From: Coprococcus eutactus
GTDB lineage: Bacteria; Bacillota; Clostridia; Lachnospirales; Lachnospiraceae
Direction of reading: 5' to 3'
DNA length: 64,000 nt
Assembly (NCBI RefSeq): GCF_025149915.1
Contig: NZ_CP102278.1
Span: 2,208,501 to 2,272,500 of the forward strand
Shown: one piece after another, positions 18,884 to 33,054 of the stretch
Position numbering within the stretch: the first letter of the stretch is position 1
Layout of the letters: every line of letters begins with the position of its first letter
Notes under the pieces: model-generated
What the model was told of the DNA's origin: nothing
Databases searched by the model: none
What the model saw: only the letters and a program-made list of their open reading frames with translations
Position numbers and translations under genes: made by a program

Positions 18884-19654
18884 TTATCTCAGATCTCTTC
18901 TGCGAAATACCGTCCATGTAGCTACTATCATTGCCACACCATAAACTGCCGCGATACCCATTGCTATTCCAGCATGTCCCCAATCAATATTCCATCCCCC
19001 CATCTCATTCACTGCCACAAATGGCAGATATGACAGGAACTTTTCCAGCTTTTCTGACTGAAATATCAACGGCATGACTGTAAGTCCAAGGTCTATCACA
19101 AAAAACAGCAGTATATTTATCGACACTGATGCAGCCTTTGATGTCAGTGAAAATGCGATGAATACGCACGTCATGAACATCATTGTCAGAACAAAGCCTT
19201 CACACACTATCGATCTCAACATATATAATGCGACATCCCCATCAAAAGCCCTTCCAAATCCTCCTGCAATAGAAGAACCAACTACATATACAAGTATATC
19301 CTCCGCAGCTAGTATCCATATAGCCACAACATATACTATGATCTTCGAAAACATTATATGTACACGACTGTGTCCCTGTGCAATGGCACACTGTATATCT
19401 CGCGACTTATAATCGCTGGTGATCAGAGATGCCGCCATGAATCCAAATAACATTCCGGACACCGTACTTCCTGAAAATGCTGTCAGAAGATAATTAAACT
19501 GTTCAAAACCATTCAATTCCATCCCGAGCAGATCTCCCACAAATCCTACAGATAACAGATATATCACATCCTGAATAAAGAACACTATGAGGCAAACCCT
19601 GAACCCCACACTCTTCCATAACTTATAGAATTCTGCTGACAATAATCTACGCAT
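18884..19654 (-). CDS. ABC-2 type transporter permease
   Basis: 256 residues from the ATG at 19654 (GGGGG 8 nt upstream). Six predicted membrane segments; starts MRRLLSAEFYKLWKS, typical of ABC-2 permeases of the bacitracin/lantibiotic-export type. YKSRDIQCAIAQGHSRVHIMFSKI is the usual cytoplasmic coupling stretch. It overlaps the ATPase gene by 8 nt and pairs with it. Substrate unknown; no linked histidine kinase or bacteriocin gene. Confidence 0.85.
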   Translation of the reverse strand: MRRLLSAEFYKLWKSVGFRVCLIVFFIQDVIYLLSVGFVGDLLGMELNGFEQFNYLLTAFSGSTVSGMLFGFMAASLITSDYKSRDIQCAIAQGHSRVHIMFSKIIVYVVAIWILAAEDILVYVVGSSIAGGFGRAFDGDVALYMLRSIVCEGFVLTMMFMTCVFIAFSLTSKAASVSINILLFFVIDLGLTVMPLIFQSEKLEKFLSYLPFVAVNEMGGWNIDWGHAGIAMGIAAVYGVAMIVATWTVFRRRDLR

Positions 19655-20564
19655 GGCTGCCACCCCCTATCATCCTTATAAAGTAATTCTCCAGGCTCTC
19701 CTCCTCCATGTGATACTCCGCCACAAATACCCTCTCGTTGTACAGTACCCACGCAAATTCATCAGGGTCTACTGGTCTGTCTATCACCATCTCCGGCCCG
19801 TTCACGAACACCTGGGTAATGTTGTATCTCTCTGCAAGAATCGACAATACTTTCTGCACATCATTTGTCTTCAGCTTTATCCTGCGGCCGCATCTCGCAT
19901 CTAACTGCTGAGCAGAAATGCAGTCCTTTATACATCCGTGATCTATGATTATATAATCAGTCGCCAGCTCATGAAGCTCTGTAAGTATATGGCTTGATAT
20001 GAGCATAGTAACCCCAAATCTCTTGTTGAGCTGTTTAAGAAGATTCCTAATCTCCACTATCCCCACAGGATCAAGGCCGTTGATCGGTTCGTCTAGCAGC
20101 AGCAGTTCAGGGCCAGACAGCATGGCACAACCTATTGCAAGTCTCTGTTTCATTCCCATAGAGTAATTACGAAACTTTCGAGGGCCAACACCACTAAGCC
20201 CTACATTGTTGATTGTCCTCTGCACCAGCTCGTCATTATCTATTCCCCTAAGTTTCATATTGAGCTTTATATTTTCCCTCGCATTGTAATTCGCATGTAG
20301 GCCCGCATGCTCACTTACAGTTCCTATCCTTGTCCTCGCCTGAACCAAGCCTTTTTTGTCCGAACTTCCAAACAGTTCTATCGTCCCCTCATCTGGAAAC
20401 AGGAGTCCATTGATATGATTGATCATGGTTGTCTTTCCAGCACCATTTTGTCCTATAAAACCATATATTTTTCCTCGTTCAAGCGTTATATTCACCCCCG
20501 ACAAAACTTTGTTTTTGCCGTATGACTTGGTGAGATTGCTCACCTTTACTACCGTATCCACCAT
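19647..20564 (-). CDS. ABC transporter ATP-binding protein
   Basis: 305 residues from the ATG at 20564 (GGAGG, 4 nt spacing; the longer frame lacks family homology). Walker A GQNGAGKTT, signature YSMGMKQRLAIGCAML, Walker B LLLLDEPINGLD and the H-loop ISSHIL are all intact. A C-terminal domain of about 80 residues follows the core, as in BcrA-type exporters. Partner of the permease at 18884. Confidence 0.92.
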   Translation of the reverse strand: MVDTVVKVSNLTKSYGKNKVLSGVNITLERGKIYGFIGQNGAGKTTMINHINGLLFPDEGTIELFGSSDKKGLVQARTRIGTVSEHAGLHANYNARENIKLNMKLRGIDNDELVQRTINNVGLSGVGPRKFRNYSMGMKQRLAIGCAMLSGPELLLLDEPINGLDPVGIVEIRNLLKQLNKRFGVTMLISSHILTELHELATDYIIIDHGCIKDCISAQQLDARCGRRIKLKTNDVQKVLSILAERYNITQVFVNGPEMVIDRPVDPDEFAWVLYNERVFVAEYHMEEESLENYFIRMIGGGSHA

Positions 20565-20628
20565 TTTCCCTCCACCTTTCTCTATTTTCTTCTTATAACA
20601 TACCTCACAAATAAGCATTAAAATCGTA

Positions 20629-20668
20629 TAAAAAAACCACTATCCAATAATAACATTGAATAGTGGTT
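20629..20668 (-). terminator. Terminator of the rpsF-ssb-rpsR operon
   Basis: AACCACTATCCAA (20635-20647) pairs with TTGAATAGTGGTT (20656-20668), one mismatch, followed on the minus strand by a run of T. Confidence 0.85.
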
Positions 20669-20694
20669 CTGTATACACTTATCACTGATAAGAA

Positions 20695-20958
20695 TTAATC
20701 CTGAACGTATGGTAATACTGCAATCTGTCTAGCTCTCTTGACAGCAATTGTGATTGCTCTCTGATGCTTAGCACATGTTCCTGTGATTCTTCTAGGAAGG
20801 ATCTTACCTCTCTCTGAGATATACTTTCTGAGTGCGTTTGAATCCTTGTAATCAATCACAGCCTCTTTATTAGCACAATACTCGCAGACTTTCTTTCTTC
20901 TACGGATATTTCTTCTCTTCATTGGAGCGTCAGCTCTATCAGTTTTATTGTAAGCCAT
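20695..20958 (-). CDS. rpsR: 30S ribosomal protein S18
   Basis: 87 residues; [46 protein letters not shown] and AIKRAR-like [12 protein letters not shown] are characteristic. Cys-containing (C-) paralogue with CxxC and one further Cys, a zinc-binding form. Last gene of the rpsF-ssb-rpsR operon. Confidence 0.97.
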
Positions 20959-20975
20959 TGTATTTACCTCCTGTT

Positions 20976-21428
20976 TTATTTGAATGGTAAATCGTCCTCT
21001 ATACCTTCTGGTATGCTCATGAATCCCTCAGTGCCTGCATTGCTCGGCTCAGGTCTTCCTGCCGGCTGATATCCACCACCTGATGTCTGTCCACTGGCAG
21101 CTTTGCTCTCTGCAAACTCCTGCTCCTCAATGACAACATCTGTTGTGTATACCTTGTTACCATCCTTATTCGTGTAGCTACCAGTCTGAATTCTGCCTGT
21201 AACGGCAATCTTAGTACCCTGCTTAAGATACTTCTCTGCGAACTCTGCACTCTTGCCGAATGCAACACAGCCTATGAAATCTGCATTCTGGTCGCCATTT
21301 CTATTAAATCTTCTGTCTACAGCCAATGTATATCTTGCGATGGCCATCTGACCGTCACTTGAGTTTGACTGTGAATATCTAACTTCTGGGTCTCTTGTAA
21401 GTCTACCCATCAATATTACCTTGTTCAT
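20976..21428 (-). CDS. ssb: Single-stranded DNA-binding protein
   Basis: 150 residues: OB fold ([55 protein letters not shown]), Gly/Ser/Pro linker, and acidic tip ending DDLPFK, the protein-interaction tail. It coats single-stranded DNA in replication and repair. Placed between rpsF and rpsR as in most Firmicutes. Confidence 0.97.
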
Positions 21429-21444
21429 TATAGAATACCTCCTA

Positions 21445-21735
21445 TTACTCGGCGTCTAATCTAACGCAAAGATATCTAAGAACGGATTCCATAATACGAA
21501 TGTTAGCCTCAAGCTGAGCTGGAACATCAGCGTCTGCATCAAACTGAATGAAGTAGTAGTATGCTTCGCCCATCTTCTGAATCTCATAAGCAAGCTTCTT
21601 AAGTCCACACTCGTTAACATCTGTAATTGTTGCGTTAGCCTTCTCAATATAAGACTTAACCTTATCAACAACAGCTGTTCTGGCTTCCTCATCAATCTTT
21701 GCACTAACAACTAAAGTCAATTCATATTTGTTCAT
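21445..21735 (-). CDS. rpsF: 30S ribosomal protein S6
   Basis: 96 residues from the ATG at 21735 (GGAGG 9 nt upstream): MNKYELTLVVSAKI, ITDVNECGLKKLAYEIQKMGEAYYYFIQFDA, ESVLRYLCVRLD. The longer frame to 21783 has no family homology. First gene of the operon; the leader has a stem (CACAG-ACAG-CTGTG near 21765-21778) that may belong to the S6:S18 autoregulatory element. Confidence 0.97.
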   Translation of the reverse strand: MNKYELTLVVSAKIDEEARTAVVDKVKSYIEKANATITDVNECGLKKLAYEIQKMGEAYYYFIQFDADADVPAQLEANIRIMESVLRYLCVRLDAE

Positions 21736-21812
21736 TACATTGCACCTCCTTATGGTCTCTGGCCCACAGCTGTCTGTGAGCAAGGAATATGATTAATACA
21801 TCACAAGGATTG

Positions 21813-21841
21813 ATATTATCATATTTTTCCAGGCAATTCAA
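21813..21841 (-). promoter_or_regulatory. Promoter of rpsF-ssb-rpsR
   Basis: Minus strand TTGAAT (21836-21841), 17 bp, TAATAT (21813-21818), about 75 nt before rpsF. Confidence 0.65.
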
Positions 21842-21896
21842 GCACTTTTTTGTTGAAAATAAGTTGCAAAAACGGATAAAAAACAACTTATTGCAT

Positions 21897-22655
21897 TTAC
21901 CTGAATTCAGTTGCATGCTTTCTTATCCATAGCGGGAACAAATTCCTCTGGCATCTGTAGTTTTCTCTATGTTCTATGGCTACCGCACTGAAAAACGTTC
22001 TCCACATATCCGTGTATTCATCCTCCTCATACTCCGCCCGCTCCAGAGTCGTGAACTCCTCATCCGTAAGATGCTTCACATACATACATTCATCTGCCGG
22101 ATGCACCACAGCCGTGCGTCTGCCGTCATCGACTATAACCCAGTGTTCCGACGGCATCCTGTCAGCAAAATGCCCCGCCACCAAAAGCGACACGTCGCAC
22201 CGAGGCTCTATATGGCTTACATACACTTTTCTGTCCACCGATGTGAAACGCGTCATCTCACGGAACTTGTGTGACTCATTGCTGACATTTCTCACAAGCT
22301 CCATAATGCACATGACCTCCCGTTTTATAAGCATGTGCTCGATATCTTTTCCCACTTTGAACGCAAGTATCAGATACCTGTACACCGCATCCACAGCATC
22401 TTCCCGCCAAGAGCGGAGCGCATAGAACACATTCCGGTAGACCAGATCTGATATACGCCTCACCGATCTGGTAAACTTCTCTGCCTTATCCGAGTCAGCA
22501 TCAACATGTACATACTCTGCAAACATATCAAGCTGTGCAACTGGTTCCCTGACTATCCTGACATCGTCATGTCCTACTTTCAATGCATACTCCCACGCCG
22601 AATATATGCAGGATGCCGCATCCTCATAACTGCCTCCACACGTAAAAATCATCAT
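21897..22655 (-). CDS. DUF4130 / TIGR03915-type putative DNA repair protein
   Basis: 252 residues; N-terminus MIFTCGGSYEDAASCIYSAWE and C-terminal FFSAVAIEHRENYRCQRNLFPLWIRKHATEF match the DUF4130 family, always paired with a radical SAM partner. The start overlaps the partner stop by 4 nt (ATGA), so the two are translated together. The pair is annotated as putative DNA modification/repair; the reaction is unknown. The SOS-type operator upstream of the partner supports a DNA-damage role. Confidence 0.9.
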   Translation of the reverse strand: MMIFTCGGSYEDAASCIYSAWEYALKVGHDDVRIVREPVAQLDMFAEYVHVDADSDKAEKFTRSVRRISDLVYRNVFYALRSWREDAVDAVYRYLILAFKVGKDIEHMLIKREVMCIMELVRNVSNESHKFREMTRFTSVDRKVYVSHIEPRCDVSLLVAGHFADRMPSEHWVIVDDGRRTAVVHPADECMYVKHLTDEEFTTLERAEYEEDEYTDMWRTFFSAVAIEHRENYRCQRNLFPLWIRKHATEFR

Positions 22656-24202
22656 AACGCGCTTCCTCCTTGAAGTCCTATATCGAACAACGTCATCTGC
22701 CTGTACTGTTCATTCTGATGGGTGACCTGCCAGTTCTCCCTGCGGCTCATATCAGTCATCTCACCGACGATATAATCTCGCTCGATCGGAATTCTGTACA
22801 TCATACGCCCACCGCATGTTATAAAGTAATGCGCTCTCTTCAGCACCACCCCCATCTTCTTCATACTGTCAAAGTCAAGGCTTCCGTATCTACGCGCCCT
22901 GACTATCCTCGCCGCTGACTTTGGTCCTATTCCGGGAATGCGAAGCAAAAGATCATACGGCGCAGTTTGTACCTCAACCGGAAACTGATCTAGATGTCTA
23001 ACAGCCCAGTTGCACTTTGGATCCATGCGCTGATCCAGATTCGGTTCATCAGCCGTGACTATCTCATCAGCACGAAATCCATAATACCTGAGAAGCCAGT
23101 CAGCCTGATAGAGTCTGTGTTCTCTCAGCAACGGAACCTCTGTCCCCAGTGACGGAAGTGCTGAATCATCGTTGATTGGTATGTATGCCGAATAAAACAC
23201 CCTCTTCAGGTCGTAACTCTGATAAAGTCTCTGAGCAGTATGAATAAGAGTATAATCCGAACCTCCATCAGCACCCACTATCATCTGTGTACTTTGTCCT
23301 GCCGGTGCAAATGGTCTTCTTCTGTCTGTATCTCCAAACATAGACGGAAGCACTGTACCTGTTCCGCCGACAGTTGAAATACTAATTTCGTCTGCAGATT
23401 CTCGCAATGTACTAGCTTGAAGTGATGACGCTTTGTCTGTGTCCGGAAGTTCGACTTGTCCTGCTGCCACATCAGATGCCAGAAGATCCTGCTCCAGATT
23501 CTTCTCGTTGAATATGCTCCCAGTCAGATATCTGTTTATACTGCTTCTCTCCATGCGCGCAGACTTTCCAATCGCCAACCTGTGCGACTGTATCGTGCTG
23601 GTAAGCTTGCCCATGGGGTCAAGAATGGTCTTAAAACTCTTATTTGGAGCAAGTCGTTCCAGCCCCTCCTCAGTTGGCAGTTCCATATTAACACTTACCC
23701 TGTCCGCTAAATACCCCACCATACTTATAAGTTCATCGGGAGCTCCCGGTATCGTCTTGACATGTATATAGCCGTTGAACCTGTACTTTGTCCGCAGCAT
23801 ATAGAGTGCCTCACACATGAGCTGCATGGTATATGTAGGGTTCTTCATAACCCCGGAACTCAGGAACAGGCCCTCTATATAATTCCTCTTGTAAAACTCC
23901 ACGACTAGATCGCACAGTTCTTCCGGTGCAAATGCGGTTCGTGGTACATCATTGCTCTTTCTATTCAGACAATACTTGCAGTCGTATACACAGTGATTGG
24001 TCATAAGGACCTTCAGGAGTGATATGCACCGTCCATCTGCAGCAAAGCTGTGGCATATCCCGCAGGACACACTATTGCCAAGGGCTCCTTTCTCGCCTTT
24101 TCTGTCCACTCCGCTGGATGTACAAGCCACATCATACTTGGCCGCATCAGCCAGTATCTTTAATTTTTCATTTGTTGTAAGTCCTTTTATTATCTCGCTC
24201 AT
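22652..24202 (-). CDS. Radical SAM putative DNA modification/repair protein (TIGR03916 type)
   Basis: 516 residues from ATG 24202. A Cys triad C71-x3-C75-x2-C78 (HCVYDCKYC) binds the SAM cluster, and a preceding CGIC adds two more Cys. The N-terminal EKLKILADAAKYDVACTSSGVDR is the family hallmark. A helix-hairpin-helix DNA-binding motif (LLRIPGIGPKSAARIVRARR) is near residue 430. No ribosome site precedes the ATG and the predicted transcript begins at or within 1-2 nt of it, so translation is probably leaderless. Partner of the DUF4130 gene. Confidence 0.9.
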   Translation of the reverse strand: MSEIIKGLTTNEKLKILADAAKYDVACTSSGVDRKGEKGALGNSVSCGICHSFAADGRCISLLKVLMTNHCVYDCKYCLNRKSNDVPRTAFAPEELCDLVVEFYKRNYIEGLFLSSGVMKNPTYTMQLMCEALYMLRTKYRFNGYIHVKTIPGAPDELISMVGYLADRVSVNMELPTEEGLERLAPNKSFKTILDPMGKLTSTIQSHRLAIGKSARMERSSINRYLTGSIFNEKNLEQDLLASDVAAGQVELPDTDKASSLQASTLRESADEISISTVGGTGTVLPSMFGDTDRRRPFAPAGQSTQMIVGADGGSDYTLIHTAQRLYQSYDLKRVFYSAYIPINDDSALPSLGTEVPLLREHRLYQADWLLRYYGFRADEIVTADEPNLDQRMDPKCNWAVRHLDQFPVEVQTAPYDLLLRIPGIGPKSAARIVRARRYGSLDFDSMKKMGVVLKRAHYFITCGGRMMYRIPIERDYIVGEMTDMSRRENWQVTHQNEQYRQMTLFDIGLQGGSAL

Positions 24203-24209
24203 ACGTTCT

Positions 24210-24238
24210 ATTATACGAACATTAGTTCGATAATACAA
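24210..24238 (-). promoter_or_regulatory. Promoter of the radical SAM/DUF4130 pair
   Basis: Minus strand TTGTAT (24233-24238), 17 bp, TATAAT (24210-24215). The predicted start of transcription coincides with the ATG at 24202. Confidence 0.75.
24216..24229. promoter_or_regulatory. LexA/DinR-type SOS box
   Basis: CGAAC-ATTA-GTTCG is a perfect palindrome fitting the Gram-positive SOS consensus GAAC-N4-GTTC. It fills the spacer between -35 and -10, so bound LexA would block RNA polymerase. Confidence 0.85.
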
Positions 24239-24292
24239 GTAATTTTATACAAATTTCTGTCGGTGTCCTTCCTGTCCCAGGTTGGCATAAAA

Positions 24293-24314
24293 GGGGTCAG
24301 GTACCTCCGTCCCC
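24293..24314. repeat. Possible REP-like imperfect palindrome
   Basis: GGGG..GGTACC..CCCC, 22 bp with GGTACC at the centre, lies between the pckA terminator and the radical SAM promoter. Similar GC-rich palindromes occur as dispersed repeats in Clostridia; only one copy is visible here. Confidence 0.3.
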
Positions 24315-24330
24315 AAAGAATCCGCAGAGA

Positions 24331-24379
24331 CTGAAAAACCGGATATATCCAGGCATAACGCCTTGAATATATCCGGTTT
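24331..24379 (-). terminator. Terminator of pckA
   Basis: AAACCGGATATAT (24336-24348) pairs perfectly with ATATATCCGGTTT (24367-24379), followed by T5 on the minus strand. Confidence 0.88.
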
Positions 24380-24420
24380 GCATATTGCTTATATTGTCTA
24401 ACTGTTTGTCAGTTTATATC

Positions 24421-26025
24421 TTAGAGCTGTGGACCTGCAGCAACTAATGCCTTACCTGCTGCATTTCCCTCATACTTAGCAAAGTTCTTCTGGAATCTTG
24501 CTGCAAGATCCTTAGCCTTTGTCTCCCACTCTGAAGCATCAGCGTATGTGTCACGTGGGTCAAGGATTGCTGGATCTACACCAGGAAGCTCTGTTGGAAC
24601 CTCGAAGTCGAACATAGGGATCTTCTTTGTAGGAGCCTCATTGATAGCACCGCTAAGGATTGCATCGATGATTCCTCTTGTATCCTTGATAGAGATTCTC
24701 TTGCCTGTTCCATTCCATCCTGTGTTGACAAGATATGCCTTAGCACCACTCTTCTCCATCTTCTTAACAAGCTCCTCTGCATACTTTGTAGGATGCAGCT
24801 CGAGGAATGCCTGACCGAAGCAAGCTGAGAATGTAGGTGTTGGCTCTGTGATACCTCTCTCTGTACCAGCAAGCTTTGCTGTGAATCCTGACAGGAAGTA
24901 GTACTGTGTCTGCTCTGGTGTAAGGATTGATACTGGAGGAAGTACTCCAAACGCATCTGCTGAAAGGAAGATTACGTTCTTTGCAGCTGGTGCTGATGAT
25001 ATAGGTCTTACAATGTTCTTGATGTGATCTATTGGGTAAGATACACGAGTATTCTCTGTTACGCTCTTATCAGTGAAATCAATCTTGCCGTTTGCATCAA
25101 GTGTAACGTTCTCAAGAAGAGCGTTTCTCTTGATAGCGTTGTAGATGTCTGGCTCTGAATCCTTGTCAAGGTCGATAACCTTAGCGTAGCATCCACCCTC
25201 GAAGTTGAATACGCCGTTGTCATCCCAGCCGTGCTCATCATCACCGATGAGGAGACGCTTTGGATCTGTTGAAAGTGTTGTCTTACCTGTTCCTGAAAGG
25301 CCGAAGAAGATAGCTGTGTTCTCACCGTTCATATCTGTGTTAGCTGAGCAGTGCATTGAAGCCATTCCCTTAAGTGGAAGGTAGTAGTTCATCATTGAGA
25401 ACATACCCTTCTTCATCTCTCCGCCGTACCATGTGTTAACTATAACCTGCTCATGGCTTGTGATGTTGAATGCTACACATGTCTCTGAGTTAAGTCCTAA
25501 CTCCTTGTAGTTCTCAACCTTAGCCTTTGATGCATTGTATACTACGAAATCTGGCTCGAAATTCTTAAGCTCTTCCTCAGTTGGCTTGATGAACATGTTT
25601 GTTACGAAATGAGCCTGCCAAGCAACCTCAACGATGAAACGGATAGCCATACGAGTATCAGCATTTGCTCCGCAGAATGCATCAACTACGAAAAGTCTCT
25701 TGTTTGAGAGCTCCTTCTTTGCAAGGTCCTTAACTGATGCCCATGTCTCCTCTGTCATTGGATGGTTATCGTTCTTGTACTCATCTGATGTCCACCATAC
25801 AGTATCCTTTGAATTCTCATCTACTACGATATACTTATCTTTAGGTGAACGGCCTGTATAAATACCAGTCATAACGTTAACTGCGCCAAGTTCACTAACC
25901 TGTCCCTTCTCGTATCCCTGAAGGTCAGCCTTTGTCTCTTCCTCGAATAACAATTCATATGAAGGATTGTGTACGATCTCTGTTGTGCCTGTAATGCCAT
26001 ACTTAGTTAAATCAACTGTTGCCAT
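24421..26025 (-). CDS. pckA: Phosphoenolpyruvate carboxykinase (ATP)
   Basis: 534 residues. Kinase-1a [14 protein letters not shown] near residue 240, kinase-2 [12 protein letters not shown], metal-binding GEMKKGMFS and GRSPKDK near the N-terminus are intact. It interconverts oxaloacetate and PEP with ATP/ADP; in fermenting gut anaerobes it often works towards oxaloacetate. Monocistronic with its own promoter (130-nt leader) and terminator. Confidence 0.97.
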
Positions 26026-26158
26026 TTTTCTTAACTCCTTTTCTTTAAATGTATTTCATTGATAGGTGCATGTCGCCTGTACCCTGCCGGCACCGCAACT
26101 ATACAGCACTCAATAATCTGAAAATAAATATGAACACTTTCTCTCATATTCAGTTGAA

Positions 26159-26187
26159 AGTATACCCAATTAGTCAAAATAAATCAA
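26159..26187 (-). promoter_or_regulatory. Promoter of pckA
   Basis: Minus strand TTGATT (26182-26187), 17 bp, TATACT (26159-26164). An imperfect TCAATA/TATTGA stem at 26184-26203 overlaps it and may also be the weak end of the channel operon upstream. Confidence 0.6.
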
Positions 26188-26266
26188 TATGATTATTGAG
26201 TTTTTTTTGTAGTTTACAGAAACTTCTCAATTATAATCTGAATTTTATATTTATTACTTGCATAAC

Positions 26267-27256
26267 CTAAGATAATGAGCTTCCACGTCTCTTCTCAAGG
26301 AATTTTGACTTCACTATCAGAATATCACCTGTCTGTATCTTCAGATCACCTGTCGGCAGTATAGACATATTATCCCTGAGTACCATATATATATTCACAC
26401 CATACTCCTCCGTAGCCTGGAGTATGGTCCTGCCGCAAAACTTGCTCACATCATCTACGAGCAGTTCTCCAATCTCGTCCACATCAACAACTTTGGACTC
26501 CTCGTTAGCATTGTTCTGATACTGCTCTACAAATCCGGCACTTATGATACCTGTAGGTATCGCTACCAGCAGAACTCCCATAAATGCTATGACTATCGCC
26601 ATGCATTTGCCCATCAGCGTGATCGGGTAAATGTCTCCATATCCCACGGTAAGAACCGTGGACACCGCCCACCATATTCCGCTGAAAGCATTGCTGAACA
26701 CCCCTGGCTGTGCAGCGTGTTCCGTGCTGTACATGCACAGACTGCTCGCCATCATCAATATAAATATGATGAACATAGATGAAATAATCTGCCTGCTCTT
26801 TCTTACCAGTACAATCTTGATGACATTGAAACTATCATACCTCGAGTTGATCCTGAACAGATGAAATATCCTGACGACCCTGAGCATTCTGAATGCCACA
26901 AAACCAGAAAGGAAAAATACCGGTATGATTGTCAAAAGATCGACAACACCGTCATACGATATTAGAAACTTTCCTATCGCCTTTCCTCTGGTGCATGTGG
27001 GATACAAAAAGTCCGCCGTCCATATGCGGAGGGTGTACTCAACACAGAATACGCCTGTAGTCACCCACTCGATAACACTCAGTATTCCATAATATGGTTC
27101 AAGCTGATCGTAGGTCTGCAGGAACATCACCGATATGTTAGACAATATGACAATCACTATAAATATGTCAAATGCCCTGCTCAGCAGATTGCTTTTGTCT
27201 CCTATCTGTATTATGTCAAATATTTGTTTTTTTAGTTTTGTCTTGTTTACCGCCAT
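26267..27256 (-). CDS. Kv-type six-TM potassium channel with C-terminal TrkA-C-like domain
   Basis: 329 residues. Six membrane segments; S4 has spaced arginines (RMLRVVRIFHLFRINSRYD); pore helix and filter SGIWWAVSTVLTVGYGDIYP contain the K+ signature TVGYGD near residue 205. The cytoplasmic C-terminal 90 residues end in ILPTGDLKIQTGDILIVKSK, as in TrkA-C/RCK-C ligand domains. This is a voltage-gated K+ channel homologue of the prokaryotic Kv type. It lies 52 nt after a MotB-like gene on the same strand with no terminator between, so co-transcription with the MotAB-like pair is likely. Confidence 0.9.
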   Translation of the reverse strand: MAVNKTKLKKQIFDIIQIGDKSNLLSRAFDIFIVIVILSNISVMFLQTYDQLEPYYGILSVIEWVTTGVFCVEYTLRIWTADFLYPTCTRGKAIGKFLISYDGVVDLLTIIPVFFLSGFVAFRMLRVVRIFHLFRINSRYDSFNVIKIVLVRKSRQIISSMFIIFILMMASSLCMYSTEHAAQPGVFSNAFSGIWWAVSTVLTVGYGDIYPITLMGKCMAIVIAFMGVLLVAIPTGIISAGFVEQYQNNANEESKVVDVDEIGELLVDDVSKFCGRTILQATEEYGVNIYMVLRDNMSILPTGDLKIQTGDILIVKSKFLEKRRGSSLS

Positions 27257-27308
27257 TGTATCCCTCTTGATTATGCCTGTTAGCTATAGTCCTTCCCCTG
27301 CAGATGGC

Positions 27309-28064
27309 CTATTTATCCTTGAGAATATCCATCATCTCATCTATCATCTCTTCATCCTGAAGTCTGAACTTTATCTCAACACGTCTGGATGCATCCATGT
27401 CAACCTCTCCATCATCACCATATATCGGATTGCTGTAGGACTTTCCATTTGCCGTAAGCACTGTCCTCAGCTGTTCTTCCTGCCCACTGCTGATTATGCC
27501 ATTGCTCTCCGTCAGGCAGTACCTTGCCACCGAAAATGCTCTCTGCTGTGAAAGTTCGAGATTGTATATATAGGAACCATTCGTATCCGTATGTCCCTCT
27601 ATGATTATCTCCGAAACGTAATCCCTGTAATCATCACTTAAAAGTACACTACAATACTTAGGAAGAAACTGGTTGATAAATTTCTTTCCATCCTCCTTCA
27701 GTTCACTGTCCGACACGTCAAACAGCACTCCAGCGTCAAATGTGATCGCACCGGTCTTCTCATCTATCTTAACATTTAGTGAGCTGCCTGAAAACTCATC
27801 CCTGAGTGCCTTTACCAGATCACTTCTGATTCCAGCAATTCTGTCGAGTTCTTTCTGCTGCTCACCAAGCATCTTCTCCTGATCAGCAATTATCTTCTTC
27901 TGCTCGTCAAGCTGTTCCTGTTTGCTCTCATACTGCCTCTTGGACTGCATGAGTGTGAACGATATAATAAGAATAAATATCAGAAGCAGAGCAGCCATCA
28001 TGTCCGAATATGACAACCAGTAGGACGTTTCTTCATCCTCGTGTCTTCTTCTCTTTCTGCTCAT
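27309..28064 (-). CDS. MotB-like protein with OmpA peptidoglycan-binding domain (non-flagellar)
   Basis: 251 residues. A charged N-terminus, then one membrane helix (SYWLSYSDMMAALLLIFILII) with Asp21 at the position of the proton-carrying Asp of MotB. A coiled coil follows (about 48-90), then an OmpA-type domain (EIIIEGHTDTNGSYIYNLELSQQRAFSVARYCL). No flagellar or chemotaxis gene is nearby. The start overlaps the MotA-like stop by 4 nt (ATGA). Related to the stator subunit ZorB of Zorya defence, but no ZorC/D/E gene is adjacent. Confidence 0.88.
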   Translation of the reverse strand: MSRKRRRHEDEETSYWLSYSDMMAALLLIFILIISFTLMQSKRQYESKQEQLDEQKKIIADQEKMLGEQQKELDRIAGIRSDLVKALRDEFSGSSLNVKIDEKTGAITFDAGVLFDVSDSELKEDGKKFINQFLPKYCSVLLSDDYRDYVSEIIIEGHTDTNGSYIYNLELSQQRAFSVARYCLTESNGIISSGQEEQLRTVLTANGKSYSNPIYGDDGEVDMDASRRVEIKFRLQDEEMIDEMMDILKDK

Positions 28065-29080
28065 GACCTATCCTCCCCACTATTTACACCTATAGCCCTC
28101 GGACGGTTTATACGCCCTCTGAATATGTCATTCTGATCCCTTGTCAGTGTTCGGATATCCTCTATATTCTCCCCCATAGCTCTGAGATATGGAAGAAGTT
28201 TTTCCTCTATAGCCTTCTGTGTTGCAAGCATCGCCTCGAGCTGTTTTTTCTGGAAGTGAAGCTCCAGATTGCCGTTGTCGTACGCCGCATCCGGCTTGAC
28301 GTATCTCTTGAATTCAAATATAAACCCATCAAGCTTATGATATGCCTGTTCAAGCACTGACTTAAATATCAGGTTAAATGTCAGAGAAAATATCATTCCA
28401 TATATGGACGTATGGAATGCTACCTTTATTCCATCCATAAGAGGTCCGATACTGTTTGTTATCTCCTCCGCCGAGCCCGTGTTGAACGCCTGGAGTCCAA
28501 TGGAAAGTCCGATGAATGTTCCAAGAATACCAAGTCCCGTCATGGCTCCCGGCACCAGCGAGAGCCTGCCCTTCTCGACCGCATCATCGATAAGCTGATA
28601 GTTTATGAAATCCTCGATATCACAGGAATACTTTCCTTCCTCGTCATTTTCAAGACGTTTCATCTCCTCAATGTAATCAACATACGAGTTTCTGAGATGT
28701 TCCTCGTTAAATATACCATATCTGGTCTCCGTGCGGTAGAGTTCCCACAGAAGCTTCTTTTCCTTGGCATAGTCACCCTTTATGTAGCTTATCGCTATAT
28801 GAAAATCCTCACCCATCTGGTCGATGTGCTTCAGATGCTTATATGCGTACACAAATATAGCACCGGTTATGGCAAACATACACGCACTTATCATCACATT
28901 TGCCAGATTCAGGCTGTCATTCGTGACGTTAAGAAGAATACATATCCCCAGCATCGCCACGTACACAACCGGAAGCCATTTCTTGTTCAGTTCCACCCTC
29001 ATATTCTGCTTCTTGCGAAACGATCTTGCAGCCTTCTCATTCTGCGGTCTGACTGTCTTCAGTCTGTTTCTTTTGTTCAT
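28061..29080 (-). CDS. MotA/TolQ/ExbB-like proton-channel protein (ZorA-like)
   Basis: 339 residues from the ATG at 29080 (GGGAGG, 7 nt). Four membrane segments: about 32-48, 56-80, 180-205 (VPGAMTGLGILGTFIGLSIGLQAF, the MotA/ExbB core) and 225-250 (VAFHTSIYGMIFSLTFNLIF). A cytoplasmic loop lies between TM2 and TM3, and a coiled C-terminal tail of about 80 residues follows TM4. It is shorter than classic ZorA, which has a long tail. With the MotB-like partner it should form an ion-driven stator; the driven process is unknown. Confidence 0.85.
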   Translation of the reverse strand: MNKRNRLKTVRPQNEKAARSFRKKQNMRVELNKKWLPVVYVAMLGICILLNVTNDSLNLANVMISACMFAITGAIFVYAYKHLKHIDQMGEDFHIAISYIKGDYAKEKKLLWELYRTETRYGIFNEEHLRNSYVDYIEEMKRLENDEEGKYSCDIEDFINYQLIDDAVEKGRLSLVPGAMTGLGILGTFIGLSIGLQAFNTGSAEEITNSIGPLMDGIKVAFHTSIYGMIFSLTFNLIFKSVLEQAYHKLDGFIFEFKRYVKPDAAYDNGNLELHFQKKQLEAMLATQKAIEEKLLPYLRAMGENIEDIRTLTRDQNDIFRGRINRPRAIGVNSGEDRS

Positions 29081-29101
29081 ATTGTTTCCTCCCATTGAAC
29101 A

Positions 29102-29171
29102 CCAGCCATGCAAAATTTGCCTTCGGCAAATGGCTGGCGCTACATGTCAAGTTTTCATAGAAAACTTGACA
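29102..29171. repeat. Two tandem hairpins in the leader of the MotA-like operon
   Basis: Hairpin 1: CCAGCC (29102-29107) with GGCTGG (29132-29137), enclosing ATTTGCC-TTC-GGCAAAT (29115-29131). Hairpin 2: TGTCAAGTTTT (29145-29155) with AAAACTTGACA (29161-29171), 11 bp perfect. The compact pair looks like a palindromic repeat unit or a structured leader, starting 22 nt upstream of the start codon. Confidence 0.6.
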
Positions 29172-29523
29172 CATCCATACAATATATCCTTTCTGCCATG
29201 TTTTAAACAACCGGCAGCAGCAGACTCCCCCGTTCCACCTTTTCTATTTTATCATAGTTAAAAAACAGGGATTTTACCAGTTGAAATACTTACTCTTTTT
29301 AATATTTTTAACTGCTATATCCATCACAATGTGCACACCGCACAATTCGCCATATCCTTTTTGTGCATTTTACAAATAAGGTCATATTTTTTTAAATTTT
29401 GAAGATTTTATTTTGCAAAACGTTTTTTTTCTGTACATATTCTGTTCATATTTTATGTTTATACTGAACTCAGTTGTTAAGGAGAACGTAATTTACTCTT
29501 TGTTGTTTAAGTTGTTGTAAAAA
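29172..29523. other. Non-coding AT-rich spacer upstream of the MotA-like operon
   Basis: No supported gene. The promoter of the MotA-like operon should be here, but no clear -35/-10 pair was found. On the plus strand a weak TATACT (29460-29465) is followed by AAGGAG and a short open stretch rich in TTG codons before the terminator at 29524, so a short plus-strand transcript is possible. Confidence 0.4.
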
Positions 29524-29558
29524 AGAACCGCTGAGATTTATCAAGTGGTTCTTTTTTT
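29524..29558. terminator. Bidirectional terminator in the 29.1-29.8 kb spacer
   Basis: AGAACCGCT (29524-29532) pairs with AGTGGTTCT (29544-29552), one G-T pair, with T7 on the right and A-run on the left. No gene on the plus strand ends here, which hints at an unannotated short transcript. Confidence 0.7.
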
Positions 29559-29647
29559 GCGCTTTTTTAGTCTTTTTCCCCAGCAACTTATCGTCTTCAC
29601 ATGTTGCCTATTATCCATAACTTGGCTATTTAGGCGTTAAAGGAATA

Positions 29648-29690
29648 AAAGCTGATATACAGATGAGATCAGAACCTGTACACCAGCTTT
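29648..29690 (-). terminator. Terminator of putP
   Basis: 29648-29662 pairs with 29676-29690 (15 bp with two wobble pairs), followed on the minus strand by TTTTATT. Confidence 0.75.
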
Positions 29691-29775
29691 CCTTGTATTT
29701 ATCTTTTTTATATTTATCTTTATATATTCATCTTCATGTCTATATCTGTCAACTCAATATGCAAGGACGTATTTC

Positions 29776-31257
29776 CTACTCTGTAGGAAGCTTTGCCTGC
29801 TCAAATATCTCAGCAACCTTGTCATCAGGCTTCTTTGTGAGAAGTGAGACCACAATGGCTGTGATAAATGCTGCTGCAAATCCAGGAACGATCTCATAAA
29901 GTCCTGTTGGTGTTGCAAGGAACTTGTACCAGAGCATGTCAACAGCAAATCCGACTATGATAGAAGCAAGCGCTCCGTTGTAATTCAGTCGCTTCCAGTA
30001 CAGTGACAGAACGATGACCGGTCCAAACGCTGAACCGAAAGCGCCCCATGCATTTGACACGAGTGCCATGATTCCCTCGCAGTCTGGGTTCATAGCTATG
30101 GCAAGTGCCACAACTGAGATGATGATTACCACAATTCTTCCTGCCCAGAGCATCTCCTTGTCAGATGCACTCTTCCTGAATATAGGCTTGTACACATCAG
30201 ACGAAAATGCTGATGATGAAGCAAGGAGCTGTGAATCAGCTGTACTCATGGACGCTGCAAGGATAGCTGAGAGAAGTATACCAGCTACAAGTGCAGGGAA
30301 CACGCCTCTTACAAGTCTGATGAATACCTGTGAGTTGTCTGTAAGTCCGCCACCGAGATACTTAAGGCCGACCATACCAACTACGGATGCCATAACGAGA
30401 ATGATTCCTGTCCAGCAAGTACCGACTATTCTGGACTTCTTCATCTCCTTCTCTGACTTGATCGAAATGTATCTTATAAGAATATGTGGCATACCCATAT
30501 ATCCAAGTCCCCATGCAAGTCCTGATATGATATTGATCACACTGGTCTTGTCAAATGAACCACTTATAAGGGCATTGTAATAATTGTCTGGAATGACAAC
30601 ATCAGGTGCTATAAAGCCAGCGCCCTGCATGGTGATGACCGCAATGATAGGTGCGATCATGAGAGCTGCAAGCATCAGAAGTCCCTGGAAGAAATCCGTC
30701 CAGCACACTGCATTAAAACCACCAAGGAATGTGTACACGATGATGATGACTGCAGCGCCGATCATGGCTGTATTCCTGTCGATGCCCATAACAGTATTGA
30801 ACAGAGTACCGCAGGCCGATATACTTGACGCAGCGTATATACAATATGCAACCACAAATATAACTGCACATATTATGAGAAGCAGCTTATTGTCTGACTG
30901 AAAACGATTTGTCAGATACTGAGGTATAGTGATCGAATCGTTGTACGCTATCGAGAATCTTCTGAGTCTCGGTGCTATGAATATCCAAGCACATGCTGTT
31001 CCGATGAACAGACCAACTGATATCCACATGTTGCTGAGTCCTGTCGCATAGAATGCTCCGGGCAGTCCCATGAGAACCCACGCACTCATATCAGAGGCTC
31101 CGGCGCTGAGTGCAGCCACCAGACCATTCATATCTCTTCCTCCAAGGAAATAATCCTTCTCTCCGGCATTCCCCTTGGATTTGAAGAAGAAATAAATTCC
31201 TACACCGATTACCAGGACAAAATACGCTATAAACGCAATCATCTCGTAAACATTCAT
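29776..31257 (-). CDS. putP: Sodium/proline symporter
   Basis: 493 residues of the SSS family with about 13 membrane segments. Typical PutP stretches: KDYFLGGRDMNGLVAALSAGASDMSAWVLMGLPGA, GGFNAVCWTDFFQGLLML, LSAILAASMSTADSQLLASSSAFSSD. Imports proline with Na+. Monocistronic, though proline import may feed the oxidase cluster at 47-53 kb (speculative). Confidence 0.93.
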   Translation of the reverse strand: MNVYEMIAFIAYFVLVIGVGIYFFFKSKGNAGEKDYFLGGRDMNGLVAALSAGASDMSAWVLMGLPGAFYATGLSNMWISVGLFIGTACAWIFIAPRLRRFSIAYNDSITIPQYLTNRFQSDNKLLLIICAVIFVVAYCIYAASSISACGTLFNTVMGIDRNTAMIGAAVIIIVYTFLGGFNAVCWTDFFQGLLMLAALMIAPIIAVITMQGAGFIAPDVVIPDNYYNALISGSFDKTSVINIISGLAWGLGYMGMPHILIRYISIKSEKEMKKSRIVGTCWTGIILVMASVVGMVGLKYLGGGLTDNSQVFIRLVRGVFPALVAGILLSAILAASMSTADSQLLASSSAFSSDVYKPIFRKSASDKEMLWAGRIVVIIISVVALAIAMNPDCEGIMALVSNAWGAFGSAFGPVIVLSLYWKRLNYNGALASIIVGFAVDMLWYKFLATPTGLYEIVPGFAAAFITAIVVSLLTKKPDDKVAEIFEQAKLPTE

Positions 31258-31499
31258 TAGTTAATCCACCTTCCATAATAATTATAATTTATCTGCTCCG
31301 CACCAACTTTACCACTGCAGTGCAGTATCTCACTGTCAGTGCACATAACAAAGCAAATTTTACACGGAAATATACCAAAATGCAAGGTTTTTCAGCATTT
31401 AGCGATTTTATCTGTTTTGCCAGTTTTCTGGCGGCAGGCCTCACAGCTGATATCTGCCAGTGCAAACCTCCCAAGCTAACTGCCTGATCCCTTCCTGAT
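31258..31499. other. Spacer between putP and the paaK terminator
   Basis: The putP promoter should lie here. A TATAAT at about 31282-31287 (minus strand) lacks a good -35 partner. A short repeat of CACTG/CAGTG units (31312-31342) can form small hairpins. No gene seen. Confidence 0.4.
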
Positions 31500-31568
31500 A
31501 AAACAGCCGGCTCACGGCGGCATGTCCGGTCGCGATCCCGGAAAGCTCACCATTGAGCCGGCTGTTTT
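31500..31568. terminator. Terminator after the CoA ligase gene
   Basis: AAAACAGCCGGCTCA (31500-31514) pairs perfectly with 31554-31568; A-run and T-run flank it, so it works in both directions. The 39-nt loop contains further GC-rich pairing. Confidence 0.9.
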
Positions 31569-31640
31569 ATTCTCTCTATATAGTCTTTTAATCTCAAACT
31601 TTTCAGTCCTGTGATTCGTCTGACTAGCTAAGCTTACTAA

Positions 31641-32966
31641 TTAGAATCCGATATGTCTGTTATCTGTGATTCTCTTTGCCTTACCCTCTGAACGTGGAAT
31701 GGTCTTAGGCGGAACCAGCTCAACCTTTGCGCTGATAAGCAGTGTCTGCTTGATATTTGTCTTGATGCGGGATGCAATAGCCGCAAGCTTTGCAGCATCG
31801 CCCATATCCACATCTTCCTTGAGCTCTACCTGAACTGTCAGCTTATCCTGTGAATTCACACGATCAACCACGATCATATAATGAGCTGAAGCCTCCTCCA
31901 CGCCGAGAAGGACTGACTCTATCTGACTAGGGAATACATTTACACCACGGATTACAAGCATGTCGTCTGTACGGCCTGTGATACGGCTCATCTTGACTGT
32001 TGTTCTTCCACATGCACATGTGCCGTGTGTTAGTGTGCATATGTCATGTGTCCTGTATCTGATCATAGGTGTACCTGTCTTGGTAAGGGTTGTAAACACA
32101 AGCTCTCCAGGAACTCCGTCTGGAAGCGGCTCCTCTGTGACAGGATCAATGATCTCTGCAAGAACATGATCCTCGTTGATGTGCATTCCGTTCTTCTCGA
32201 AGCACTCAAATGCAACACCAGGTCCACCGATCTCTGTTAGTCCATATATATCAAATGCATCGAAGTCAAGAAGCTCCTCAAGGTGCTGTCTCATCTCCTC
32301 TGTCCAAGGTTCTGCTCCGAAGTAGCCTGACTTGATCTTCAGTTCTGATGGATCGATGCCCATTTCCCTGATGGTCTCTGCGAGGTATGTAGCATATGAA
32401 GGTGTACAGCAAAGCATGGTTGCGCCGAGCTCTTTCATCATCATGATCTGTCTCTGTGTGTTGCCTGATGACATCGGAACTACCATGGCACCAACCTTAG
32501 TCGCGCCCTGATGTGCTCCAAGTCCACCTGTGAACAATCCATAACCATAAGCTATCTGGATGACATCATCCTCTCCGCCACCAGCGCACTTGATAGCTCT
32601 GGCTACCATCTCCGTCCACACATCTATATCATTCTGGGTGTAGCCAGATACAACAGGCTTACCTGTGGTTCCTGATGAACCCTGGATTCTGATGATGTCC
32701 TTCCTGTCTGCTGCAAACAGTCCAAATGGGAAGTTATCCCTGAGATCTGTCTTCTGCATAAATGGCAGCTTGACGATATCGTCTATGCTGTTTATATCCT
32801 CCGGCTTTACTCCCGCCTCGTCCATTCTGGCTCTGTATGCCGGTACATTTGCATATTCAAGTTCTACTGTCTTTCTGAGTCTCTCACCCTGAAGCTTTCT
32901 TCTCTCCTCAGGATCCATACACTCCATCTCTTTATTGTAGATGTAATGAATCTTCTTCTGTCTCAT
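31641..32966 (-). CDS. paaK: Phenylacetate-CoA ligase family protein
   Basis: 441 residues from ATG 32966 (GGAGG 11 nt upstream). Adenylate-forming enzyme: IQGSSGTTGKPVVSGYTQND is the nucleotide motif, then YGYGLFTGGLGAHQGATKVGA, DIYGLTEIGGPGVAFEC, RYRTHDI and a C-terminal lid (GRTDDMLVIRGVNVFPSQIE). It activates an aryl acetate to the CoA thioester. In gut Clostridia such stand-alone genes usually accompany amino-acid fermentation; no iorAB gene is adjacent here. Strong own promoter. Confidence 0.93.
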   Translation of the reverse strand: MRQKKIHYIYNKEMECMDPEERRKLQGERLRKTVELEYANVPAYRARMDEAGVKPEDINSIDDIVKLPFMQKTDLRDNFPFGLFAADRKDIIRIQGSSGTTGKPVVSGYTQNDIDVWTEMVARAIKCAGGGEDDVIQIAYGYGLFTGGLGAHQGATKVGAMVVPMSSGNTQRQIMMMKELGATMLCCTPSYATYLAETIREMGIDPSELKIKSGYFGAEPWTEEMRQHLEELLDFDAFDIYGLTEIGGPGVAFECFEKNGMHINEDHVLAEIIDPVTEEPLPDGVPGELVFTTLTKTGTPMIRYRTHDICTLTHGTCACGRTTVKMSRITGRTDDMLVIRGVNVFPSQIESVLLGVEEASAHYMIVVDRVNSQDKLTVQVELKEDVDMGDAAKLAAIASRIKTNIKQTLLISAKVELVPPKTIPRSEGKAKRITDNRHIGF

Positions 32967-33054
32967 AACTTCACTGTCCTCCATAAGATAAATCAGGTCA
33001 ACCTTTGTGCAACCTGCCGATTTTGTATAACGCTTTAGCGCGCCAAACAACTAA

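Follow-up and report, generated by a model that had tools for sequence, protein, structure and literature searches.

Whether a motor protein pair and a potassium channel encoded one behind the other form a single device, or a motor that stands alone beside an unrelated channel, is the question raised by a locus of Coprococcus eutactus (Lachnospiraceae). It lies in the 64,000-nucleotide stretch analysed here, referred to as the window (contig NZ_CP102278.1, positions 2,208,501 to 2,272,500). The initial annotation described a MotA-like protein, a MotB-like protein with a 4-nucleotide (nt) overlap and a membrane aspartate (D21), and a K+ channel starting 52 nt later on the same strand, all of which was confirmed by open reading frame (ORF) calls and Pfam domains. 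We consider it fairly probable that the pair is an orphan ZorAB, a Zorya-type ion-driven motor without ZorC, ZorD or ZorE beside it, with a tail that is short in the genus, self-standing and separate from the channel. The features concerned are as follows.

28061 to 29080, minus strand: ZorA/MotA-like A subunit, 339 amino acids (aa), from ORF call, Pfam and fold model.
27309 to 28064, minus strand: ZorB/MotB-like B subunit, 251 aa, with an N-terminal membrane segment and an OmpA peptidoglycan-binding domain; its gene overlaps that of the A subunit by 4 nt (28061-28064).
28002 to 28004, minus strand: codon of D21 of the B subunit, placed by alignment with relatives and solved ZorB.
26267 to 27256, minus strand: Kv-type K+ channel, 329 aa, with Ion_trans and TrkA_C (RCK C-lobe) domains.
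26633 to 26650, minus strand: TVGYGD selectivity filter of the channel, from sequence.
27257 to 27308, minus strand: gap between the B subunit and the channel, 52 nt here and 21 nt in locus L001 of a congener.

In the Pfam search, MotA_ExbB (2.4e-5) was matched by the A subunit, and OmpA (1.4e-14) and MotB_plug (1.1e-6) by the B subunit, whose OmpA domain keeps the peptidoglycan-binding motif. The closest solved relatives were ZorA for the A subunit, in both sequence and fold, and ZorB for the B subunit, which was also matched strongly by the PADLOC ZorB1 model. D21 was invariant in 23 aligned relatives and aligned with D26 of solved ZorB, and the presumed ion-pathway residues T188 and S225 of the A subunit were kept as well. 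T147, S184 and D26 are reportedly the ion-path residues named by Hu et al. in 2025. The proposal of four transmembrane segments in the A subunit agreed with the four long helices of its model (26-53, 59-107, 176-198 and 204-261, followed by a low-confidence short helix at 268-320) and not with a crude hydrophobicity count, which gave three segments for A and one for B; the same count gave only four for the channel, against the six once proposed. The ratio of nonsynonymous to synonymous substitution rates (dN/dS) against L001 was 0.033 for the B subunit and 0.041 for the channel, with the synonymous rate (dS) of the A subunit saturated, and as judged from the sequences the motor parts are under purifying selection. 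Sequence profile, predicted fold and tree all identify the stator as a non-flagellar ZorAB motor, as had been suspected.

The MotA_ExbB and MotB_plug domains would also be expected of a flagellar stator, a reading to which we give practically no credence. It is contradicted by the FliG_C search, which found no match in the window's own genome or in four congeners and matched 4 of 14 named genomes in a control, and flagellar MotA fell far below ZorA in the fold comparison. Since the own genome, a single contig of 3.1 Mb, lacks a FliG_C match and encodes one MotA_ExbB protein, the stator was taken to be not flagellar. The generic ion transporters TolQR, ExbBD and AglRS, as presented in PMC12505986, have the non-flagellar motor fold in common with the pair, but gave lower fold scores than ZorA for the A subunit, and the window's B subunit, unlike them, has an OmpA domain.

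The pair shares with ZorAB of Zorya I (8QYD, 8VVN; PMC11890865) the A and B subunits and their order, the aligned Thr/Ser and Asp residues and the OmpA domain. It differs in having no ZorC or ZorD in the window, in its housekeeping neighbours, in the K+ channel that follows it in two species, and in the tail of the A subunit, with about 75 residues after the membrane core compared with several hundred in Zorya I. A-subunit length was mostly 390-620 aa in relatives, 322-374 aa in L001, L002, L073 and L016, and 339 aa in the window; on sequence, the short ZorA tail is a feature of the window's genus. Zorya II (ZorABE) and Zorya III (ZorABFG) have the ZorAB core in common with the locus; no ZorE-like gene was seen in the window or clade loci with a profile of two ZorE proteins, and the nearest neighbours of the pair are an SSF symporter, the channel and PEPCK. 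PMC11890865 proposes that binding of ZorB to peptidoglycan opens the ion path and makes ZorA rotate, and describes recruitment of the nuclease by the ZorA tail.

The distribution of the motor was surveyed at several levels. One scan of genome contigs gave 36 loci, 28 of them titled Lachnospiraceae. An A-subunit match at E<=1e-5 was found in 17 of 299 family genomes (15 of them at 7e-61 or better), in 12 of 61 genomes of the genus of G311 (one distant) and in four of five genomes of the window's own genus, the fifth being G302 (79% complete), where neither motor pair nor channel was seen. At the level of the phylum, 16 of 398 genomes, own included, had a B-subunit match at E<=1e-15. Among the 15 phylum regions fetched, the order A-B-C-D was found in L152, L153, L154, L155, L157, L158, L162, L165 and L166, and A-B-E in L159, L160 and L164; L156, L161 and L163 showed neither. 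PADLOC independently named the C and D genes in just two regions, L152 and L154 (ZorD at E=0 in both, ZorC weakly at 3.4e-7 and 7.7e-15), the other seven A-B-C-D regions being named by profiles built here; PADLOC also called ZorE in L159. The survey of relatives covered 54 loci, of which L009 has no called A frame, L015, L021 and L036 have no called B, and six run into the end of a contig at one side. L088 (G226) yielded neither an A nor a B frame.

A tree was built from the joined A and B columns of 59 rows and rooted on L159 and L160, omitting L161, L164, L156 and L158 because of long branches and L163 because it has no B. The window fell in a clade of 49 rows, mainly Lachnospiraceae (support 99/96), whose sister was a group of eight ZorABCD rows from other Bacillota families (support 94/86).

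Some occurrences lay outside this main distribution. The B subunit was matched by 36 plasmid records, all below 60% identity, and 11 of the 15 plasmid matches listed were annotated ZorB1 or ZorB2. A single phage record, L167 (MT837639.1, titled Bacteriophage sp.), which may be bacterial DNA, holds a B-subunit match together with ZorC- and ZorD-like genes (ZorD profile 5e-145); mobile carriage of the pair was rejected on these identities and this gene content. On an IMG/VR contig, large serine recombinases flank an orphan pair (L150:3590-5654), which recurs in L151. Distant MotA-like proteins of Lachnospiraceae occur in L145, L149 and L089; in L145 and L089 the next gene encodes about 550 aa that begin like MotB, in apparent polysaccharide (Wzz-like) clusters named by eye from sequence.

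We next turn to the Zorya effectors: ZorC with its EH_Signature domain, the SNF2 helicase/Mrr nuclease ZorD and the HNH nickase ZorE. As the initial annotation had noted, no nuclease or helicase gene is adjacent to the motor-channel genes; they are flanked upstream by the SSF symporter and downstream by PEPCK. ZorC, ZorD and ZorE profiles found no match in the window, ZorD and ZorE not having been searched in the rest of the own genome. Across 1369 ORFs of 167 loci plus the window, ZorC-like genes within the 49-row clade were limited to L018, L019 and L031, and profile search found no ZorD-like gene in the clade; the ZorC and ZorD profiles match by construction the rows from which they were built. 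The three clade genes matched the ZorC alignment at E=7.7e-32 (profile-profile) and were not called by PADLOC. The ZorE profile, built from L159 and L160, had one further match in the 167 loci plus the window, in L164, and none in the window or the clade loci. With no effector beside the pair and a short ZorA tail, the pair was read as an orphan ZorAB that would be unable to work as Zorya is described.

Several points weigh against this reading. The model of the A subunit is of moderate quality (pLDDT 72.8, pTM 0.61), and helical models easily reach high Z in fold comparison. The outgroup rows of the tree have long branches and odd composition. None of 39 genomes (own included) and none of 14 control genomes reached the cut-off of the EH_Signature model for ZorC; G332, from which L031 comes, gave a match below it. 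This null is a weak test because the model also fails on ZorC of L152. Eight of 48 fetched clade loci hold less than 3 kb after B, and L012 and L034 less than 0.2 kb, while the effector search of the own genome did not extend genome-wide to ZorD, ZorE or novel effectors. Equal-weight parsimony gave three changes of ZorC presence, compared with four losses under one gain followed only by losses, and placing the three ZorC rows in one clade was not rejected (p-AU 0.52), so that a late gain of ZorC explains the data as well as repeated loss. Effector loss and an effector-free origin of the clade are thus both compatible with the tree.

The pair might still defend against phage as a cut-down or specialised system, its effectors being encoded at other sites or ion flux itself taking that part. 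Its kin are defence genes, its A subunit occurs patchily in the family and in the genus of G311 at the counts given above, a copy lies between serine recombinases on the IMG/VR contigs L150/L151, and in L156 a related A-B pair is joined with an NYN-domain protein. Against this, the identified neighbours of the pair are mostly housekeeping genes and its ZorA tail is short; according to PMC11890865, deleting each component of Zorya I, or the ZorA tail, abolishes protection, and Zorya-linked depolarisation was not seen. An antiphage role was judged unlikely. In the L156 locus (L156:9076-12992), 17 nt separate the NYN-domain protein (PF01936) from A, which lies downstream of it; the profiles used found no ZorC-, ZorD- or ZorE-like gene there, and the NYN-domain protein is a possible further Zorya-like effector, as far as its domain suggests.

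The role of the K+ channel bears on whether the orphan ZorAB is self-standing. The channel matched Ion_trans (6e-32), Ion_trans_2 (9.8e-14) and TrkA_C (8e-10). Its Arg-rich S4-like stretch and TVGYGD filter mark it, by sequence, as a voltage-gated K+ channel, and its best solved sequence relatives were KQT and Kv1-type channels, with which it shares Ion_trans, the S4-like stretch and the filter, and from which it differs by the TrkA_C tail. The RCK-like tail described earlier holds insofar as the RCK C-lobe was matched; no other domain was matched after the pore. Channel matches were found at E<=1e-3 in 128 of 299 family genomes and at E<=5e-55 in 83 of 299 (hand count), and neither A nor B was found beside the channel in any of 29 loci (L039-L067) from other family genomes, within up to 1.5 kb on each side.

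If the motor and the channel were one device, as first proposed, wall strain sensed by the B subunit would drive the motor and the K+ channel would be its output, through membrane potential or K+ loss, in a stress or antiphage response. Such a device would fit the shared strand, the 52-nt gap and the lack of a terminator-like site. Repeated linkage was also found beyond this strain: besides the window, the channel adjoins the pair in L001, 21 nt after B, and in L010 of another genus, in the opposite order, 14 nt before A. The L010 and window channels fall in different supported clades of the channel tree, so the two joins probably arose apart. Among 20 genomes with both, only 0.016 such neighbours (0.008 on the same strand) would be expected by chance, with genome size as a rough guide to gene number. 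A channel match, partial in some cases, was present at 1e-20 in 29 and at 1e-50 in 20 of the 35 genomes that have an A-subunit locus, and this 20 of 35 (E<=1e-50) compares with 83 of 299 in the family draw (E<=5e-55). On the other side, linkage was seen in just 2 of 54 relative loci, and L001 is collinear with the window over 12 matched genes (19647-33050), which leaves L010 as the only independent case. Within the genus, the channel is confined to the window's genome and to G301, the source of L001, and adjoins the pair in both, whereas G299 (one contig) and G300 carry the pair with no channel match at E<=1e-3. In the family draw, 17 genomes had an A-subunit match and 4 of these also a strong channel match, which is not above the overall 83 of 299. 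Taken with the 29 channel loci, these counts speak against a motor coupled to the channel, and a single device was considered improbable. The channel is, on sequence comparison, a separate and widespread Lachnospiraceae channel that lies behind the pair in two sister species, and it is probably a neighbour and not an obligate part of the motor.

The layout of the locus was examined further. A terminator between 27256 and 27309 had been named as evidence against a linked unit, and a sequence scan found no terminator-like site there. The one promoter-like match reaching into the gap (27283-27255, 9/12) is weak, in a scan giving 18 such sites versus 12.5 in shuffles, and the channel and motor pair are probably on one transcript. 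The longest form of the A-subunit ORF starts with TTG at 29113, and the ATG at 29080 is preceded by a GGGAGG site. Upstream lies one further feature:

29081 to 29171, minus strand: leader of the A-B pair, containing a palindrome of 27 bp (29145-29171) as well as a second hairpin.

The palindrome occurs at a single place in the window, and as a conserved regulator it was rejected, its words being missing from the congener loci L001, L073 and L002. An Rfam scan of 26000-29900 gave a sole match up to E=1, RF02621, at 22.2 bits versus a gathering score of 114. Exchange of the motor-channel cassette as a unit found no support either, as its dS against L001 (channel 1.09, B subunit 1.87) falls within the range of flanking genes. 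Comparable values were obtained for SSF (1.05), a radical-SAM gene (1.59) and a DUF4130 gene (1.87), and lower ones for PEPCK (0.15), a CoA-ligase-like gene (0.79) and small genes at 20695-21783 (0.04-0.79).

Other neighbours of the pair included cation transporters. Neighbours with at least eight hydrophobic segments made up 8 of 51 genes beside the pair versus 9 of 272 other genes (Fisher p 0.0018), and p was 0.08 each at cut-offs of four and six. The test was post hoc; near-duplicate loci (L001, L008, L022, L025, L030, L033 and L146) were removed by hand, and L032, L034 and L076 are still related, so the p value is too small. The K+ channels, with four segments by that count, are not among the eight. 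An NhaC-type Na+/H+ antiporter (PF03553) adjoins the pair in L003, L013 and L032 by domain scan, and also in L033 and L034 (blast cluster) and L076 (PF03553, G193:C63:7019-7966), upstream of the pair in five of the six loci and downstream in one. The adjacency expected by chance was 0.044, from 60 matches at E<=3e-40 tallied by hand over 56 of 57 genomes (G302, with zero matches, not entered) with 2700 genes assumed. As L032, L033, L034 and L076 form one clade and the three resulting groups may go back to a single ancestral event, the independent events number one to three. The recurring cation transporters weakly suggest a tie to ion balance. In a bolder version, the clade's Zorya motor would pair with ion-homeostasis partners and not with DNA-attacking effectors, a peptidoglycan-sensing motor acting through neighbouring monovalent-cation transporters and coupling wall strain to membrane potential; resting on the K+ channel in two lineages and the antiporter in one to three, it seems to us very improbable. 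A transglutaminase-core/fn3 protein lies directly upstream of the pair in both L086 and L087.

Under the orphan ZorAB reading, a mechanism can be drawn from solved ZorAB and MotAB. Five A subunits would combine with two B subunits, and when the wall is strained or damaged the B dimer would grip peptidoglycan and the ion path would open. The flow of H+ or Na+ would then turn the A ring about the anchored B dimer. As a long tail and a nuclease for passing on a signal are both missing, the output may, less confidently, be the ion flux or wall torque itself, serving to maintain the envelope or to respond to stress. The K+ channel may help to set the membrane potential, and the motor exists without it.

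No title on orphan ZorAB in Lachnospiraceae was found in the open PMC literature, which is no proof of absence. The strong PADLOC ZorB1 match indicates that defence models can strongly match such a pair though the effectors are not there. Descriptions of Zorya include genes for a nuclease, a helicase or other effectors. A motor retained by gut and rumen bacteria in the absence of such effectors would demonstrate an independent function for ZorAB, and would supply natural tailless, effector-free versions for testing what it does.
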